Of a stretch of 41,369 nucleotides of DNA, positions 19,720 to 30,562 are shown piece after piece. Source of the DNA: Planctomycetaceae bacterium. GTDB lineage: Bacteria > Planctomycetota > Planctomycetia > Pirellulales > Pirellulaceae. The translations under genes were made by a program, and so were the position numbers. The notes under the pieces are model-generated. The model saw only the letters and a program-made list of their open reading frames with translations. It searched no databases and was not told the origin of the DNA. Where the stretch lies: positions 1 through 41,369 of the forward strand of contig JAAEMV010000609.1 of assembly GCA_024225195.1 (NCBI GenBank), given 5' to 3'. Each line of letters starts with the position of its first letter. Position 1 is the first letter of the stretch.

Positions 19720-22700
19720 TTACGCGACCGCAGGGTCCTTGTCGGTGATTTTTTCCCATTCACGAGCTAGGATCTCTACCGAATCGCGAATTTGCTTTTC
19801 AGTGTGTGCCGCAGTCATGAAAATTCGAACCCGTGTTTCTTTTTCCGGCACCGCAGGATAAAGAATGGGCTGAGCATTGATGCCATGATCGTACAAAGCT
19901 TCGGAGAGCCGCAAGGCTAAGAGCGAGTGCCCCGTGATGATCGGAATGATCGCAGTCCCCTGTGCCATCCCGGTATCGAGGCCGGCTTCCTTAGCGAGGC
20001 TCAAAAACAGGCGGGCGTTTGCTTGCAGCTTTGCGACCAATTCGGGTCGTTTCTGTAGAACGCGAAGGGAGCCAAGTGCCGCTCCGACATTGGCCGGAGG
20101 CATTCCTGCGGCGAACACATAACCCGGGGTCGTGTAACGTAGGTATTCAATCAGTGAGCGGGAGGCTCCCACGAATCCGCCACAACTGCCGAACGACTTA
20201 CTAAGAGTGCCCATCCAGCACTCAATATCATCGCGTTGAACGTCGTATACCTCTCCCAGACCTCGTCCCGTCTCGCCTAGTGTGCCGATGGAGTGGGCTT
20301 CGTCGAGATAGAGCCAGGCCTTGTATCTTTTCTTGATCTCGATGAACTTTGGAAGGTCCGGGTAATCCCCGTCCATACTGTAAAGCCCTTCGATGATAAT
20401 CAGAACGCGTCGATATTCCCCGCGGCAGCTCCGCAGAATGTTTTCCAGGTCTTCCCAGTTATTATGCTCGAAAGGGCGACGCTGGGCGCCCGATAGCATC
20501 GCACCTTGAATCAGGCTGTTGTGGGCGAAACTGTCGTGCAGAATCAAATCGCCGCGTCCAACTAGGTGCCCAATTACAGATTCATTGCAGCCATGTCCAC
20601 CTGGGAATGTGATCACGTCTTCTACTCCGAGGAAATCGGAGAGCTCTTTTTCGAGTTGCTTGTGAATTGTTTTTTCACCCGAAACAATTCGACTGGCGGA
20701 AACACTGGTGCCGAAGTTGTCAATCGCGTTCTTCGCAGAGAGATTTACCTCGGGGTCCCCGGATAGCCCCAGATAGTTGTAGCTGGCGTAGGAAATTAAT
20801 TCTTTCCCGTCAATTTCAGTCGTATCGCTGATCCGCCCTTCGTGGACGCTGAAAAATGGGTTTCGAATTCCTGAATCTTCGATCCTTTTTCTCAGACTCT
20901 GGAGACGCATGAATTCCGGCATCTTTTCCAGTTTGTAAAATGATTCAGGAACCTCGCCGTTCGTCTTTTTGGTTCCTGCGTATTTTTGGATCGCCGTGGC
21001 AACTTCGCGAACAGTCTCAATGTCTTGGAGTACATGTTCCGGTATCTTTCCACCGAAAGCACGTTCGAGTGATTGTGCGACATCAAGACGAGCGAGTGAA
21101 TCCAAACCCAGTTCGAGGATGTTGGTGTCTATTTCGACCGTTTGGGTTTTATCCGTCAACGCCGAGCGAACCTGTTCGATAACGGCTTGAACAACTTCGG
21201 GAGCGAGTTCAGAGTCAGCAAGAGTTTCGCCATCGATCTCTGCAGGAGCATATTCCTGATTTGAATCTACGTTTTGTGATTCTTCCCATAGGCACCAACG
21301 AGCGATGACATGGATATCCTCTCCATTTTCAAAGTTCCTCTTGCAGGCGTGTCGTTGAACCTTACCGGATGATGTTTTGGGAACGCTGTGGGCACGCACC
21401 AGAACGATTGCATCTGGTGGCAGATCGTGCTCAAGGGCAACCGACTTGCGGATGCTTTTGATGACGCTTTCCCATTTGTCTTTAGCCGGGCTGCGCTCGA
21501 TCTCGCAAACAATCACTAGGTGTTCGCGATCCCAACGGGTCACCGAAAATGCTGCTGCTCCGCCGGAGCGGGTAAGCGGATGGCACAGCTCGACTGTGGT
21601 TTCGATATCCTGTGGGTACCGGTTGGCGCCACGGACAATAATCATGTCCTTCAATCGACCGGTAACAAATAATTCTCCCCGATCCATGAACCCAAGATCG
21701 CCGGAACGCACGTAGTACTTTCCGTTGTCAGGTTTGAGTCGAGCCCGGAACGTCTCCTGGGTTTCCTGCTCTCTTTGCCAGTAACCCTGACCACAACTTG
21801 GGCTGTTGATCCAAATTTCCCCAATTTTGTCGTCGGGAAGCGGTGTGTGATTTTCTGGGTGGACGATCAGGACTTCTTCTTCTTCAAGAATCTTGCCGCA
21901 GCCGACTAATCTACGTGCATTTTCGTGGTTCTCATCCACACGGAGGACGCGATGTTCAACCAGTTCGTATTTATCAAATGGTCTCACGATCGGTGCTTCT
22001 TCGTCCGATCCACCGGTAACAATCAATGTTGTTTCGGCCATCCCGTAACAGGGGTAGAAAGCTTCCGGACTGAATCCGTAGGGCGCGAACTTTTCGGTGA
22101 AACGTTCCATTACCGCCGCACTTACCGGTTCGGCGCCATTGAACGCGACTTTCCAGTGTGAGAGATCAAGTCCTTCGCAATCTTCTTCGTTGATTTTCAT
22201 CGTACACCACGCGTAGGCGAAGTTTGGGCCTCCGCTGGCAATCGACTTGTATTTTGAAATGGCACGCAACCAACGGATGGGCCGAGTAAGAAATGCCACG
22301 GGTGACATTAAGTTATCTTCAGTTCCGCAATACATTGGATTGAGAATTCCCCCCACAAGCCCCATGTCGTGGTAGGTTGGAAGCCAGCTGCAGATGGAAC
22401 CTTTGAATCGACCTGTTTGGAATGCTCTGGTGATCATTCGGCAGTTCGCAATCAAATTGCGATGACTTAACATGACTCCTTTGGGAGAACCGGTTGACCC
22501 CGATGTGTACTGAATCAAACCAAGGTCATCGAGTGAAGCTTTCGGCTTGACCCAGTCGTTGGCGAATTCGGCGGCGACCGACTCGGTTGATAACCACGCA
22601 ATTCGCTGCAAGCCCGGAGAGTCTTTTATCCACTTCTCACAACTCTTGATCACCGAAGAAATTGAAATAGCGACGGACGCCTGCGCGTCATCTGAGATGG

Positions 22701-23037
22701 CACCGATCCGTGCCATGTTGCGATTGCGACGAGGTGGAAAAGCAGGGATGGGTGTGACGGCAGCGTAGTGACAACCAAAAAATGCAACAATGAATTCGAG
22801 CCCTGGTGGGTACATCATCAATGCTCGTTTGCCGGCATAGCCCCTGGAGACGAGCATCGCCGCAACAGCTTTCGCTTGGTGGTCTAGTTCTGCAAAAGTT
22901 AAGGTTTTAATTTCGCCATCACCGCCGATAAAACGGTAGGCAATTTTCTCTGGCTGCGCAGCAGCCCAGTAACTTAGCCGATCCAGAAAATTGGTTTCGG
23001 GCGGCGAGTAAGGTGCAAATAGTTCTTCAAGTTTCAC
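19720..23037 (-). CDS. Fatty acyl-AMP ligase, acyl carrier protein and alpha-oxoamine synthase fusion
   Basis: 1105 residues in three domains. Residues 1-590: fatty acyl-AMP ligase of the FAAL/FadD32-like class, with QYTSGSTGSPKGVMLSH (176-192) and YPCYGMAETT. Residues 610-690: an acyl carrier protein with GLDSL, Ser647 carrying phosphopantetheine. Residues 715-1100: PLP-dependent alpha-oxoamine synthase (AONS/serine palmitoyltransferase-like) with YNYLGLS (754-760), LDEAHSIG (911-918) and the PLP lysine Lys947 in GTLSKSFG. Inferred reaction: the ligase activates a fatty acid as acyl-AMP, hands it to the in-cis carrier, and the synthase condenses it decarboxylatively with an amino acid to an alpha-amino ketone. 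Start GTG 23037 after GGAG. The next gene, argB, is 211 bases away; no dedicated cluster is seen. Confidence 0.93.
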   Translation of the reverse strand: MKLEELFAPYSPPETNFLDRLSYWAAAQPEKIAYRFIGGDGEIKTLTFAELDHQAKAVAAMLVSRGYAGKRALMMYPPGLEFIVAFFGCHYAAVTPIPAFPPRRNRNMARIGAISDDAQASVAISISSVIKSCEKWIKDSPGLQRIAWLSTESVAAEFANDWVKPKASLDDLGLIQYTSGSTGSPKGVMLSHRNLIANCRMITRAFQTGRFKGSICSWLPTYHDMGLVGGILNPMYCGTEDNLMSPVAFLTRPIRWLRAISKYKSIASGGPNFAYAWCTMKINEEDCEGLDLSHWKVAFNGAEPVSAAVMERFTEKFAPYGFSPEAFYPCYGMAETTLIVTGGSDEEAPIVRPFDKYELVEHRVLRVDENHENARRLVGCGKILEEEEVLIVHPENHTPLPDDKIGEIWINSPSCGQGYWQREQETQETFRARLKPDNGKYYVRSGDLGFMDRGELFVTGRLKDMIIVRGANRYPQDIETTVELCHPLTRSGGAAAFSVTRWDREHLVIVCEIERSPAKDKWESVIKSIRKSVALEHDLPPDAIVLVRAHSVPKTSSGKVQRHACKRNFENGEDIHVIARWCLWEESQNVDSNQEYAPAEIDGETLADSELAPEVVQAVIEQVRSALTDKTQTVEIDTNILELGLDSLARLDVAQSLERAFGGKIPEHVLQDIETVREVATAIQKYAGTKKTNGEVPESFYKLEKMPEFMRLQSLRKRIEDSGIRNPFFSVHEGRISDTTEIDGKELISYASYNYLGLSGDPEVNLSAKNAIDNFGTSVSASRIVSGEKTIHKQLEKELSDFLGVEDVITFPGGHGCNESVIGHLVGRGDLILHDSFAHNSLIQGAMLSGAQRRPFEHNNWEDLENILRSCRGEYRRVLIIIEGLYSMDGDYPDLPKFIEIKKRYKAWLYLDEAHSIGTLGETGRGLGEVYDVQRDDIECWMGTLSKSFGSCGGFVGASRSLIEYLRYTTPGYVFAAGMPPANVGAALGSLRVLQKRPELVAKLQANARLFLSLAKEAGLDTGMAQGTAIIPIITGHSLLALRLSEALYDHGINAQPILYPAVPEKETRVRIFMTAAHTEKQIRDSVEILAREWEKITDKDPAVA

Positions 23038-27403: not shown

Positions 27404-28642
27404 ATGAAATTGACAGTGGCAAACCCTGAATTTAGCGAATCGTCTGCGGATGAATTGTTGAACGCTGACTCACCGATTTCGGGTCGCCGAATCGCGTTTG
27501 TCGGTAAATTGGGAAGCATGAATCGCCGCGAAGCGCGCGAACTGGTTCGCCGGCATCAGGGCCTGATGGTAGAGCGAATTGATCCATCGGTTGACTTGGT
27601 AGTTATTGGTGCCGATGTACTGCCACTGGGTGATCAGGCTGAGTTGCTTGATGATTGGGTGATTGAAGCGAGTGCTCAGGGACGTATCAGCGTAATTAAC
27701 GAAACTCAGTTTTGGCAAGAATTGGGGATTGTGGAGCCAGAGTTAGATATCGGACGTTTTTACACTCCAGCCATGCTGGCTGGTTTACTTGGTTTGCCGT
27801 TGTCGACAATTCGTCGTTGGCACCGCCGCGGGCTGATTACTCCAACTCGGCAGGTTAAGAAGTTAGCGTATTTTGATTTTCAAGAAGTCGCTTCGGCGCG
27901 TCGAATCGCACGTTTAATCGCGTCCGGTGCTACCGCTCAGTCGATCGAGACAAAGCTTTCACGTTTGGCCGGACTTTACCCCAATCTTCAGCGGCCTTTG
28001 TGCCAGCTTTCCGTGATTGTTGAAGGACGTCAACTTTTGCTGCGGCAAGGCGGAGGGTTGATTGAGCCTGGGGGGCAGATGCGAATTGATTTTGACTCGC
28101 CTAGCCTCGAGGATGACAGGGATGATCAGGAGGTTTCATATCCAATCAACGAGCCAGTTGCTCCGGTTCCCTTGGAAGAACTAGTCACACCTGATGAGTT
28201 CCTTAGGGCTGCTATCGATTTTGAAGATGAAGAAGATGCCGATGGGGCGATTGAGGTATATCGAGCGATGTCTCTTGCGTTTGGCCCATCTTCAGATTCC
28301 TCGTTTCGGTTGGCTGAATTACTTTACCAGCAAGGCGATTTGCCAGGAGCGCGAGAGCGTTACTTTCTGGCAATCGAATTAGACGAGTCATTCGTTGAGG
28401 CGCGGGCGAGTTTGGGGTGTGTTCTGGTCGAATTGGGCCAGCAAGAAATGGCCCTAGCTACCTTTCACGGGGCACTCGCCCATCACGCAGATTATCCAGA
28501 CGTGCATTTTTATCTTGCAAGATTGCTGGACGACATGGATCGTGCAACGGAAGCCGAACCGCATTGGCGAACGTTTCTGGAGCTTGCTCCCAAAAGTCCC
28601 TGGGCCGAAGAGGCTCGTCAGCGTCTAGACGCCGACAACTAA
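27404..28642 (+). CDS. BRCT, MerR-like HTH and TPR fusion protein
   Basis: 412 residues with three parts. Residues about 25-110 look like a BRCT domain (GRRIAFVGKLGSMNRREARELV, then VDLVVIGAD and the WxxE-like FWQELGI end). Residues 118-195 are a MerR-type winged helix-turn-helix (FYTPAMLAGLLGLPLSTIRRWHRRGLI, then the YFDFQEVASARRIARLI wing and helix). Residues about 262-412 are TPR repeats (RLAELLYQQGDLPGARERYF, then VEARASLGCVLVELGQQEMALATF). The middle linker (195-262) is acidic. It may be a DNA-binding regulator or a repair-linked scaffold. Start ATG 27404, no clear ribosome binding site. No stress or repair genes adjoin it. Confidence 0.85.
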   Translation: MKLTVANPEFSESSADELLNADSPISGRRIAFVGKLGSMNRREARELVRRHQGLMVERIDPSVDLVVIGADVLPLGDQAELLDDWVIEASAQGRISVINETQFWQELGIVEPELDIGRFYTPAMLAGLLGLPLSTIRRWHRRGLITPTRQVKKLAYFDFQEVASARRIARLIASGATAQSIETKLSRLAGLYPNLQRPLCQLSVIVEGRQLLLRQGGGLIEPGGQMRIDFDSPSLEDDRDDQEVSYPINEPVAPVPLEELVTPDEFLRAAIDFEDEEDADGAIEVYRAMSLAFGPSSDSSFRLAELLYQQGDLPGARERYFLAIELDESFVEARASLGCVLVELGQQEMALATFHGALAHHADYPDVHFYLARLLDDMDRATEAEPHWRTFLELAPKSPWAEEARQRLDADN

Positions 28643-28891
28643 CCTAGGAATTAGGCGTTTTCGCGTGTTTTTACGATGAAAGATGGCCTTCAGTCGTTTT
28701 CGAACAGGGCAACTCAGTTTGCTTGACTTTAACGGTTAGTTAATCAGTGACCACTTTTACGTTCGTAACGGTCTTTCTGGTTTCTCTTGCTAGGTTTGCA
28801 GATTCTTCCGATTGTAATAACAGGCATTCGTTGCAACCGGGCTGCGCGAATTCTCAATCAGCTTGGAAAATTCTCTTTGTCACATCGTTTC

Positions 28892-30562
28892 ATGAATCCA
28901 CAAATTAATCATTTTTTCGTGAGGACGGGGTTAGCCTGTTGGCTACTCCTTTGGTGCGCGACGTTCTCCCACGCTCAAAAGACCTACCCAACCTCACGTT
29001 ATCGTGGTCAGCAGTTGCTCGAAGACCAGCAGGTTTATGACCTGGGCAGCCAGTTGTACTCGGATTCAAGCAGTGATTTTCAGGCAATGTCACCTGACAG
29101 GTGGAGTATCCCGCCGGTCGGTGCTCGTCCAACAATTGTCAGTCGAATAGAGGAGGTGGAAGCTCAAACGCCAATCCATTCGAACAAGAAATTAATGAAT
29201 TCAATTGCGTTTAAAAAGCCTCGTGACCTCCAACCCAAATCAAAACTTGGCGAATCAAAAAGTTCTTATTGGTCACAAGCTGGGATTGAAATTTCATCAA
29301 AGCGAGAGGATCGAGTTCGACCACAACAAAGTCCGAGGCTTCATTCAGAGCGTAAACCGAATTTGAAGGCTGGATATCCTCTGCGAGTTTCTGCACGGCA
29401 GGAAATTTCAGAAGCCTCCAAGGGGCAAGTTTCGAATGGACCAGTCCTTACTGCTCCGGCATCGAATCAGAAGAGTTGGCGGCCGAAAGGGCAAAACGTG
29501 AGGAAGCGAGTCAGTCAGTCGGTGCCGCATGGTTCCGGCGAAAGCGATTGGAACTCTCATGTTAGTCGCTCATCTGCATTGGATCTTGGATTTCGACGTC
29601 CAGAGATTACAAGGCGTCCAACCGTGGAGTACTCACCTTCGAGCGCCTCTTTTGCTTCGGATTCTAGGTGTGATTGCGGCGAAACAGACTCGCCAACATT
29701 GGAAGAGATCTTACGGACCGGTCGGTATTTTGGTTCCGCCAATGTCTCATTTCTAAAGCCAGTATTGCAAGGCGATATTGCCTATGAAACCTCGGGTTCC
29801 GCCGGTCAGTTTCAGGATAATTTTGAATATGATTACAGTACTGCAAGTCAATTCAGCGTAGGCTTTGAGTCCCAAGCAGGACCAGGTTTCAGCATCAATT
29901 ATTGGGAATTTGATGGCGTGTCTGATGCTGCCAGTTGGACGTCTGGAGATGTAAGTTCAGGAGAAACCATTGTTGGTCTTGGCGGGGTTTTGGGTGGCAG
30001 GCAGTTCACCGTTTTCGATTTTAATGACACCGTTACGGTAAACGACTCACTGGACGTTCAGAGTATTGAAGCCAGTTTGTTTAAAGAGATGAAATTCAAG
30101 GTCTCTCGAATGGGGGGGCGAGTTGGATTCCAGTGGGTTGAGATCAATCGTCAAACCAATGCCTCGTTTACAGACGTTGGGGGCAGCACGGTAGCCTGGG
30201 AGGGGAAGGACCAATTCCAGGGAGCGGGACCAACTTTTGGATTTGATTATTTCCGGCCAATTGGTCACACAAAGATCGAATTTCATGCAAGTAGCGATTT
30301 TGGTTTGATTTTTGGGCAAAGAGACAAGGTTGTTCGTGACAACTTCGGTGCGATAAATCAAAACCTTAGCGATGACGAGTTTTTTACTAATTTAGATTTA
30401 TTCTTGGGTGCTCAGTACGTCATTTCTCGTGGTGGTAATCGGTGTTTTTACTTTAGGTCTGGTCTAGATTATCAGGTTTGGCTTGGAGCAGATAACGAGA
30501 CCGCTTCCAATTCCGACTTTGGTTTACGTGGTTTTTCACTAACCCTTGGCTATAATCGGTGA
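28892..30562 (+). CDS. Outer-membrane beta-barrel protein with long low-complexity N-terminal region
   Basis: 556 residues: a signal peptide ending near residue 29 (THE SHAQ-type site, ATFSHA-Q), then about 245 residues rich in Ser, Arg, Pro and Gln with no fold recognised, then from about 278 a beta-rich region with alternating aromatic strands (RYFGSANVSFLKP, FSVGFESQAGPGFSINYWEF, FGFDYFRPIGHTKIEFHASS, ending LRGFSLTLGYNR, a barrel-like terminal strand). The pattern is close to planctomycete Lpg1974/BBP7-like pore or barrel proteins. I chose ATG 28892; upstream frame (to 28787) lacks a signal peptide. Placement in the outer membrane is inferred. The low-complexity segment is unusual and could bind the envelope or be a linker. 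Confidence 0.65.
   Translation: MNPQINHFFVRTGLACWLLLWCATFSHAQKTYPTSRYRGQQLLEDQQVYDLGSQLYSDSSSDFQAMSPDRWSIPPVGARPTIVSRIEEVEAQTPIHSNKKLMNSIAFKKPRDLQPKSKLGESKSSYWSQAGIEISSKREDRVRPQQSPRLHSERKPNLKAGYPLRVSARQEISEASKGQVSNGPVLTAPASNQKSWRPKGQNVRKRVSQSVPHGSGESDWNSHVSRSSALDLGFRRPEITRRPTVEYSPSSASFASDSRCDCGETDSPTLEEILRTGRYFGSANVSFLKPVLQGDIAYETSGSAGQFQDNFEYDYSTASQFSVGFESQAGPGFSINYWEFDGVSDAASWTSGDVSSGETIVGLGGVLGGRQFTVFDFNDTVTVNDSLDVQSIEASLFKEMKFKVSRMGGRVGFQWVEINRQTNASFTDVGGSTVAWEGKDQFQGAGPTFGFDYFRPIGHTKIEFHASSDFGLIFGQRDKVVRDNFGAINQNLSDDEFFTNLDLFLGAQYVISRGGNRCFYFRSGLDYQVWLGADNETASNSDFGLRGFSLTLGYNR

Follow-up and report, generated by a model that had tools for sequence, protein, structure and literature searches.

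What lipid would be made by a bacterium that joins a fatty acid-activating enzyme, an acyl carrier and an alpha-oxoamine synthase (AONS) on one polypeptide chain? This question is raised by a gene on the minus strand of contig JAAEMV010000609.1, positions 19720–23037, from a Planctomycetaceae bacterium of the order Pirellulales (assembly GCA_024225195.1; the whole stretch analysed, 41,369 nucleotides, is called the window below). Its frame of 1105 residues starts with GTG, and the span given includes the stop codon. The product is very likely an amino-ketone lipid synthase. The favoured explanation, which seems on balance the probable one, is that of a single-chain long-chain amino-ketone synthase, most likely using serine to give a 3-keto-sphinganine-type base, which a YghO-type N-acyltransferase and a short-chain dehydrogenase/reductase (SDR) would convert into a dihydroceramide-type lipid.

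Domain organization and structural model

An earlier note on this DNA, made from its letters, had described a fatty acyl-AMP ligase (FAAL), an acyl carrier protein (ACP) and an AONS fused on one chain with all three active sites intact, and both points hold. The frame is uninterrupted and Pfam domains are recognized for the three parts, whereas stop codons abound on the plus strand of the same interval. The AMP-binding domain (residues 23–420, positions 21778–22971, on the minus strand like all features of the gene; PF00501, E 1.8e-61) carries the P-loop motif YTSGSTGSPKG, read in the translation (residues 177–187, 22477–22509). Alignment places a FAAL-type insertion at about residues 342–380 (21898–22014, limits approximate), which is missing from E. 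coli FadD. A DIP2-like C-terminal AMP subdomain follows (residues 464–571, 21325–21648; PF23024), with Lys559, presumably its ligase lysine. The carrier domain (residues 618–683, 20989–21186; PP-binding, PF00550, E 2.5e-11) has its predicted phosphopantetheine site at Ser647 (codon 21097–21099) in a GLDSL motif. In the AONS domain (residues 747–1088, 19774–20799; PF00155, Aminotran_1_2, E 7.4e-43), Lys947 (codon 20197–20199) in GTLSKS is the predicted Schiff-base lysine for pyridoxal phosphate (PLP); both sites were assigned by motif and alignment.

Residue conservation was followed in an alignment of 17 sequences, the window protein and 16 orthologues. Ser647, Lys947, Lys559 and His839 are invariant in all 17, as are 10 of the 11 P-loop motif residues. 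The catalytic residues of serine palmitoyltransferase (SPT) type align with those of the references: K947, H839 and R1071 in 17/17 sequences and D912 in 16/17, which we take to be the PLP lysine, the stacking histidine, the carboxylate arginine and the aspartate, respectively. An assembly chimera could be ruled out, since orthologues 94–98% identical sit in independently deposited assemblies (98% in genome G016); the fusion is thus no accident of assembly.

An AlphaFold model built from the same 17-row alignment reached a mean pLDDT of 81.5 and a pTM of 0.52, values at which the domains look credible but their mutual placement does not. In Foldseek searches with the N-terminal half, the closest solved structure was the FAAL domain of a Synechococcus olefin synthase (45–46% identity), which carries palmitoyl and stearoyl adenylate. 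By alignment, this part is 33% identical to the E. coli acyl-activating enzyme AasR and 25% to E. coli FadD. The ligase domain is thus related most closely to FAALs, not to fatty acyl-CoA ligases, and carries an insertion of the kind linked to FAAL function. For the AONS half, the first AONS-type fold was the Sphingobacterium multivorum SPT with L-serine (3a2b; TMt 0.92, rmsd 1.9, 32% identity), and the promiscuous ThAOS ranked close behind among AONS folds.

Distribution in the order

The fusion is conserved throughout the order and is not unique to the window's genome. In a sample of 60 genomes, which includes the latter (G000), every genome gives a match to the fusion protein, though the match is not always a fusion. 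FAAL, carrier and AONS lie in one frame in 50 of the 60 (38 as one match, 12 as two matches that share a frame of the same length), shortened or scattered pieces are seen in five (G013, G021, G029, G032, G036), and five are without it (G004, G037, G038, G041, G048). A larger sample comprised 197 Pirellulales genomes that were at least 90% complete. With the whole protein as query, 193 of these were hit at E≤1e-120, a number raised by other FAALs; with only the AONS domain, 177 were hit at E≤1e-85. This last threshold parts the fusion-clade AONS from solo genes, whose best matches reach 1e-68 and 3e-66. Outside the order such an AONS is rare: for 294 genomes of the phylum at E≤1e-100, it occurs among the matches listed only in G287 and in G195, where the match is a 677-residue frame near a contig start. 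G287 belongs to another family of the class, and its AONS (G287:C31, L054) is a solo gene of the fusion clade with one in-frame TAG.

N-acyltransferase and reductase partners

A search of the genome for ceramide-forming partners, advised in the earlier note, succeeded in part. A complete homologue of the N-acyltransferase YghO is encoded on another contig (G000:C64:22568–23671; 38% identity over residues 8–377 of 380), and a further match, a partial one, is found where G000:C799 begins. The complete copy adjoins a 324-residue SDR (L106:9860–10834), the pair being flanked by a ketoacyl synthase. The reductase CerR, on the other hand, has no match in G000 at E≤1e-15. An SDR also adjoins YghO in G005 and G042, and in G049 (L120) an SDR resembling the one beside YghO adjoins the fusion itself.

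YghO matches are present in 57 of the 60 genomes, and in 183 of the 197 at E≤1e-25. In the larger sample, the fusion-clade AONS and YghO occur together in 175 genomes and are both missing from 12, with AONS only in two and YghO only in eight. The double absences are spread over seven genera in families f2, f3, f6, f7 and f13. Several joint losses are likely, because other genomes of f2, f3, f7 and f13 have both genes. Incompleteness would explain few of these cases, since G041 consists of a single 6.6-Mb contig and the completeness of G048 is 99%; that of G435 (2.8 Mb, 90% complete) may be due to it.

Direct adjacency of a fusion-clade AONS and YghO was seen in only two genomes. In G352 (L174) a full fusion and YghO are convergent, some 200 bases separating YghO from the AONS end, and in G028 (L111) a fusion-clade ACP–AONS with an intact lysine is divergent from it. 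The sphingoid-type product put forward in the earlier note is thus supported, since this AONS clade is co-distributed with, and in two genomes adjacent to, a homologue of a ceramide-type N-acyltransferase; it is not supported by the grouping of the AONS, which does not fall with SPT.

The same note had held that grouping with BioF, or a carrier without phosphopantetheinylation, would speak against a sphingoid product. The AONS lies outside the BioF clade and the carrier serine, Ser647, is present. No phosphopantetheinyl transferase of family PF01648 was found in G000. Among 40 genomes, 35 encode such an enzyme, G016 and G017 as close relatives included, and none is seen in G000, G003, G015, G021 and G022. 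Its absence from G000, an assembly of 1063 contigs that is 94% complete, is likely an assembly gap, because fatty acid synthesis needs one.

Position of the AONS domain

In a tree of 60 rows, one fusion-type clade of 30 rows (support 100/100, branch length 1.3) stands apart both from the BioF/KBL group and from the group of SPT and cysteate-using synthases (CFAT). It includes the AONS of polyketide synthases (PKSs), that of G287, the ACP–AONS of G028 and all fusion-type AONS but one, the exception being a divergent second fusion of G148 (37% identity). A second tree, with 71 rows, was made from 49 rows of the first and 22 new ones, a twenty-third having been dropped as short, and again separates the fusion clade; rows of genus g39 lacking the PLP lysine branch off beside it with weak support (79/94). 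The sister group of the fusion clade, SPT or BioF/KBL, cannot be rooted, because the trees comprise only these three groups and no further outgroup, being without ALAS, CqsA or eukaryotic SPT rows. In this phylogeny, of the kind called for in the earlier note, the AONS thus groups neither with BioF or KBL nor with SPT. From the trees and the missed family cut-offs given below, the AONS is by sequence neither an SPT nor a BioF, and it lies outside the CFAT clade as well. An AONS outside the SPT clade may still work like an SPT.

Proposed reactions and related systems

By analogy with homologous enzymes, three chemical steps may be proposed. The FAAL domain would adenylate a free long-chain fatty acid and load it onto its own carrier at Ser647. 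The AONS domain, with PLP on Lys947, would then condense the carrier-bound acyl chain with a small amino acid, CO2 being lost; serine is the most likely amino acid and would give a 3-keto-sphinganine-type base. The YghO-family N-acyltransferase and the SDR, encoded elsewhere, would convert this base to a lipid of dihydroceramide type. The least certain elements of this scheme are the use of serine, the identity of the product as a ceramide and the assignment of the SDR as reductase, and a sphingoid base made with serine is to be regarded as the best single guess. Transfer between the active sites may run in a closed channel, as the earlier note had suggested.

The earlier note had set the chain against the separate SPT, carrier and acyl-activating proteins of other bacteria, and this comparison proved apt: all three parts are present, and the separate set has been demonstrated biochemically (PMC9386255). 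There, the relay from AasR to the carrier AcpR and on to SPT is described as proven experimentally in Proteobacteria (Rhodobacteria): the dedicated acyl-ACP synthetase acylates its own carrier, rather than CoA or the housekeeping carriers, and SPT prefers that acyl carrier. The same paper equates yghO with aca, the N-acyltransferase gene; the words fused and fusion, and any in planctomyc-, do not occur in this source. The Pirellulales chain resembles the system of Caulobacter and E. coli BL21 in its fatty acid activation, its dedicated carrier, its AONS and the YghO (Aca) homologue in the same genomes. It differs in being one chain instead of separate proteins and in its AONS, which lies outside the SPT clade; the SDR is no more than a candidate orthologue of CerR (epi). 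A tblastn search of plasmids gave FAAL, SDR, carrier and AONS side by side in records of E. coli, Rahnella, Klebsiella and Pseudomonas. In the stretches from the first two, the set is preceded by a gene for an N-acyltransferase, called yghO in E. coli, with LptF or LptG genes near; the Pseudomonas stretch has a YghO-type frame near by, unannotated in the record.

The fused layout is already in print, since Table 2 of PMC3870968 lists in 2013 the order A-CP-PLP2 for Blastopirellula marina A3ZWL3 and Microscilla marina A1ZVW4, with cluster and product given as unknown. Such domains are treated there as related to nonribosomal peptide synthetases (NRPSs) and PKSs, with no sphingolipid link or distribution given in the parts consulted. 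Both listed proteins have the domain order found here. Blastopirellula belongs to the same order as the window's organism; A3ZWL3 is probably an orthologue of the fusion, judged by domain order and taxonomy. No sphingolipid role for the FAAL–ACP–AONS layout was found in the literature searched, nor any work there linking FAAL with AONS or SPT other than that on BioWF; among the titles listed, none reports sphingolipids isolated from Pirellulales.

Other natural fusions are only partly comparable. PigH and SxtA, the latter presumably also a protein of carrier–AONS type, are without a FAAL and act in secondary-metabolite pathways. PigH-type proteins share with the fusion a carrier followed by an AONS on one chain (PMC3870968). 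BioWF likewise joins an acyl-activating enzyme to an AONS, but it is a di-domain protein of the biotin pathway, made of pimeloyl-CoA synthetase and BioF without a carrier (PMC9544090). On a Legionella lytica plasmid (L060), FAAL and ACP are fused and an AONS gene is adjacent; there, however, the AONS is separate and of the CFAT clade, and FAAL–ACP is fused to ComA. That locus (L060:5875–10746), with its CFAT-type AONS, 970-residue FAAL–ACP–ComA and 2-phosphosulfolactate phosphatase, looks like a compact sulfonolipid-type set.

Weighing the alternatives

Several observations weigh against a serine-derived ceramide base. The AONS misses the NCBIfam SPT cut-offs widely (297 of 640, 287 of 500 and 230 of 670 bits), is 31–32% identical to solved SPTs, and sits in both trees on a long branch of its own outside the SPT and CFAT references. 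The co-distribution with YghO (Fisher p = 2.1e-12, uncorrected for phylogeny and without a control gene) is not perfect: G409 and G501 have the AONS only, and G037, G311, G359, G371, G394, G398, G406 and G431 have YghO only, at the AONS threshold of 1e-85, although three of these eight (genus g39) retain a fusion without the PLP lysine. Fusion and YghO are also usually unlinked. YghO was found in one of 23 full-fusion stretches of about 12–20 kb, L174, which had been selected since the listing showed YghO there; neighbours in the order were judged among the matches listed, so that further ones may exist. The resemblance of the SDR to E. coli CerR is only distant, CerR having matches at E≤1e-15 in 10 of 40 genomes. 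The best NCBIfam model of the G000 SDR is the hopanoid-associated HpnA (243 of 368 bits, below cut-off), and because of this the SDR may serve hopanoids instead. Finally, Mariniblastus relatives have a further AONS beside a second YghO.

An alternative is the same chemistry with alanine, glycine or another small amino acid, leading to a 1-deoxy-sphingoid base or another 2-amino-ketone lipid. By score, the AONS is about equally distant from ThAOS (227 bits), S. multivorum SPT (222), KBL (217) and the SPT2 chain 7k0i (214), and its motifs GTSVSASR, GGHxxNE and HNS are missing from all 11 references. The first AONS fold matched is nevertheless an SPT with serine, narrow as that ranking is, and Tyr753, which replaces the common Asn, is shared among the references only with the Sphingomonas paucimobilis SPT; the YghO co-distribution fits either base. 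Use of a different amino acid is possible but rather unlikely. Another suggestion is that the ceramide base comes from other, CFAT-like or SPT-like, AONS genes beside YghO, and that the fusion, like PigH-type carrier–AONS proteins, makes some other lipid or a secondary metabolite. Solo AONS genes do stand beside YghO in G016, G005, G037 and G054, those of G016 and G005 grouping with CFAT, some genera bear a fusion-clade AONS on a PKS, and the NRPS/PKS framing in PMC3870968 agrees with such a role. Yet no AONS turned up in the 18-kb stretch around the complete YghO and SDR of G000, the fusion clade itself adjoins YghO in G352 and G028, and the suggestion would not account for the genomes that lack both fusion and YghO, which makes this division of labour improbable.

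That the fusion is a housekeeping enzyme, either KBL or the BioF of biotin synthesis, provided with an activating module as in BioWF, is hardly credible. Such a BioW–BioF fusion exists (PMC9544090), and bioF is the best-scoring AONS model at 336 bits, yet this is below its cut-off of 426, as are the KBL models (300 of 460 and 261 of 493 bits). The fusion clade lies outside the BioF and KBL clades in both trees, and its activating part is a FAAL with a carrier, not a pimeloyl-CoA synthetase. Identity with BioF or KBL was rejected, the genome having its own BioF (461 bits, over cut-off) and KBL (474 bits, over one of two cut-offs).

Fusions without the PLP lysine and other variants

Four genomes keep the whole chain without the PLP lysine: G311, G371 and G406 of genus g39 (L167, L168, L169) and G028 (L137, G028:C13). 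These frames of 1167–1259 residues have an intact P-loop and GLDSL; the lysine position reads H, A, A and T, respectively, and the stacking histidine is also gone. A short fusion-clade AONS of G359 (536-residue frame) lacks the lysine as well. For the pair G371 and G406, identity is 92% in the FAAL part and 58% in the dead AONS part, whereas two live pairs show higher conservation of the AONS than of the FAAL (85 vs 82%; 73 vs 63%). Replacement differences are nevertheless fewer than silent ones in the dead part (pN 0.29, pS 0.73, figures that are indicative only since silent sites are saturated). Each of the three g39 genomes has a separate AONS with the lysine, grouping with CFAT and the Mariniblastus solo genes (95/83), and the lysine-intact partner of the dead fusion of G028 is the ACP–AONS of the same genome. 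These sequences suggest that the dead AONS is kept for a non-catalytic role, possibly by pairing with a live AONS. Eukaryotic SPT pairs a dead LCB1 with a live LCB2.

A fusion-clade AONS also ends PKSs of the order KS-AT-DH-ER-KR-ACP in G187 and G036 (2567 and 2607 residues; L135:3019–10722 and L136:1546–9369). In G148 a fusion-clade AONS lies near L176:12881–14071 in a 2583-residue frame. The second FAAL–ACP–AONS of that genome (L134:8621–11950) is convergent with an MMPL-family exporter. CFAT-like solo AONS genes lie next to MMPL and YghO in Mariniblastus relatives, and in G005 (L110:6006–13635) beside MMPL, two YghO copies and an SDR. From the PKS-borne AONS, the second fusion and these solo genes, the order thus probably makes more than one amino-ketone lipid.

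Genomic neighbourhood

The neighbours of the fusion in the window are an argB-like amino acid kinase, an argF-like carbamoyltransferase, RNase PH, a DUF6960-like gene and GAPDH. In other families, judged from the L118 representatives, recurring neighbours are genes for BBP7 porin, AP_endonuc_2, PQQ, RF-1, rRNA adenine dimethylase, lumazine-binding protein and enolase. A local biosynthetic operon was rejected, the neighbours being ordinary synteny. The earlier note had seen no reductase or N-acyltransferase next to the gene, and none is present among the 20 window open reading frames scanned, a part of those of the window. A promoter and terminator scan gave no clear excess over shuffled sequences (2 vs 3.5; 6 vs 4.7). 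Farther along the plus strand, 27404–28642 encodes 412 residues in which a MerR-type HTH and TPR are combined, unusually, with a BRCT match that is weak (21.1 bits, cut-off 21.3), and 28787–30562 encodes 591 residues, the C-terminal half giving a weak match to the Legionella major outer membrane protein family (26.9 bits against a cut-off of 25.4).

Significance

A Black Sea survey reports 138 Planctomycetota metagenome-assembled genomes with Spt-like genes, using an SPT filter of E≤1e-70 (PMC11334938). Some of its Spt hits lie within longer proteins, and the word fusion is absent from the main text. From its scores of about 220 bits, the fusion would be expected to fall below this filter. More tentatively, ceramide-type lipids might be ancestral and nearly universal in Pirellulales, made through a fused AONS of a distinct clade that SPT surveys would miss; in at least four genomes, the fused AONS might have become a non-catalytic domain, still joined to FAAL and carrier, from which the acyl chain is handed to a separate live AONS, a parallel to the LCB1/LCB2 pair.

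The fused architecture itself being already catalogued, the points worth taking further are the order-wide conservation, the tie with YghO and the dead-AONS variants. The fusion could be read as a natural "Rosetta stone" for the SPT that takes its acyl chain from a dedicated carrier in Proteobacteria. One expressible chain would ease the study of transfer from FAAL to carrier to AONS, and the versions without the PLP lysine would allow the reason for retaining a dead AONS half to be tested in bacteria. If the favoured explanation is true, an order of aquatic bacteria would join the sphingolipid makers through an enzyme outside the recognized SPT clade, and may make these lipids by a route so far overlooked.

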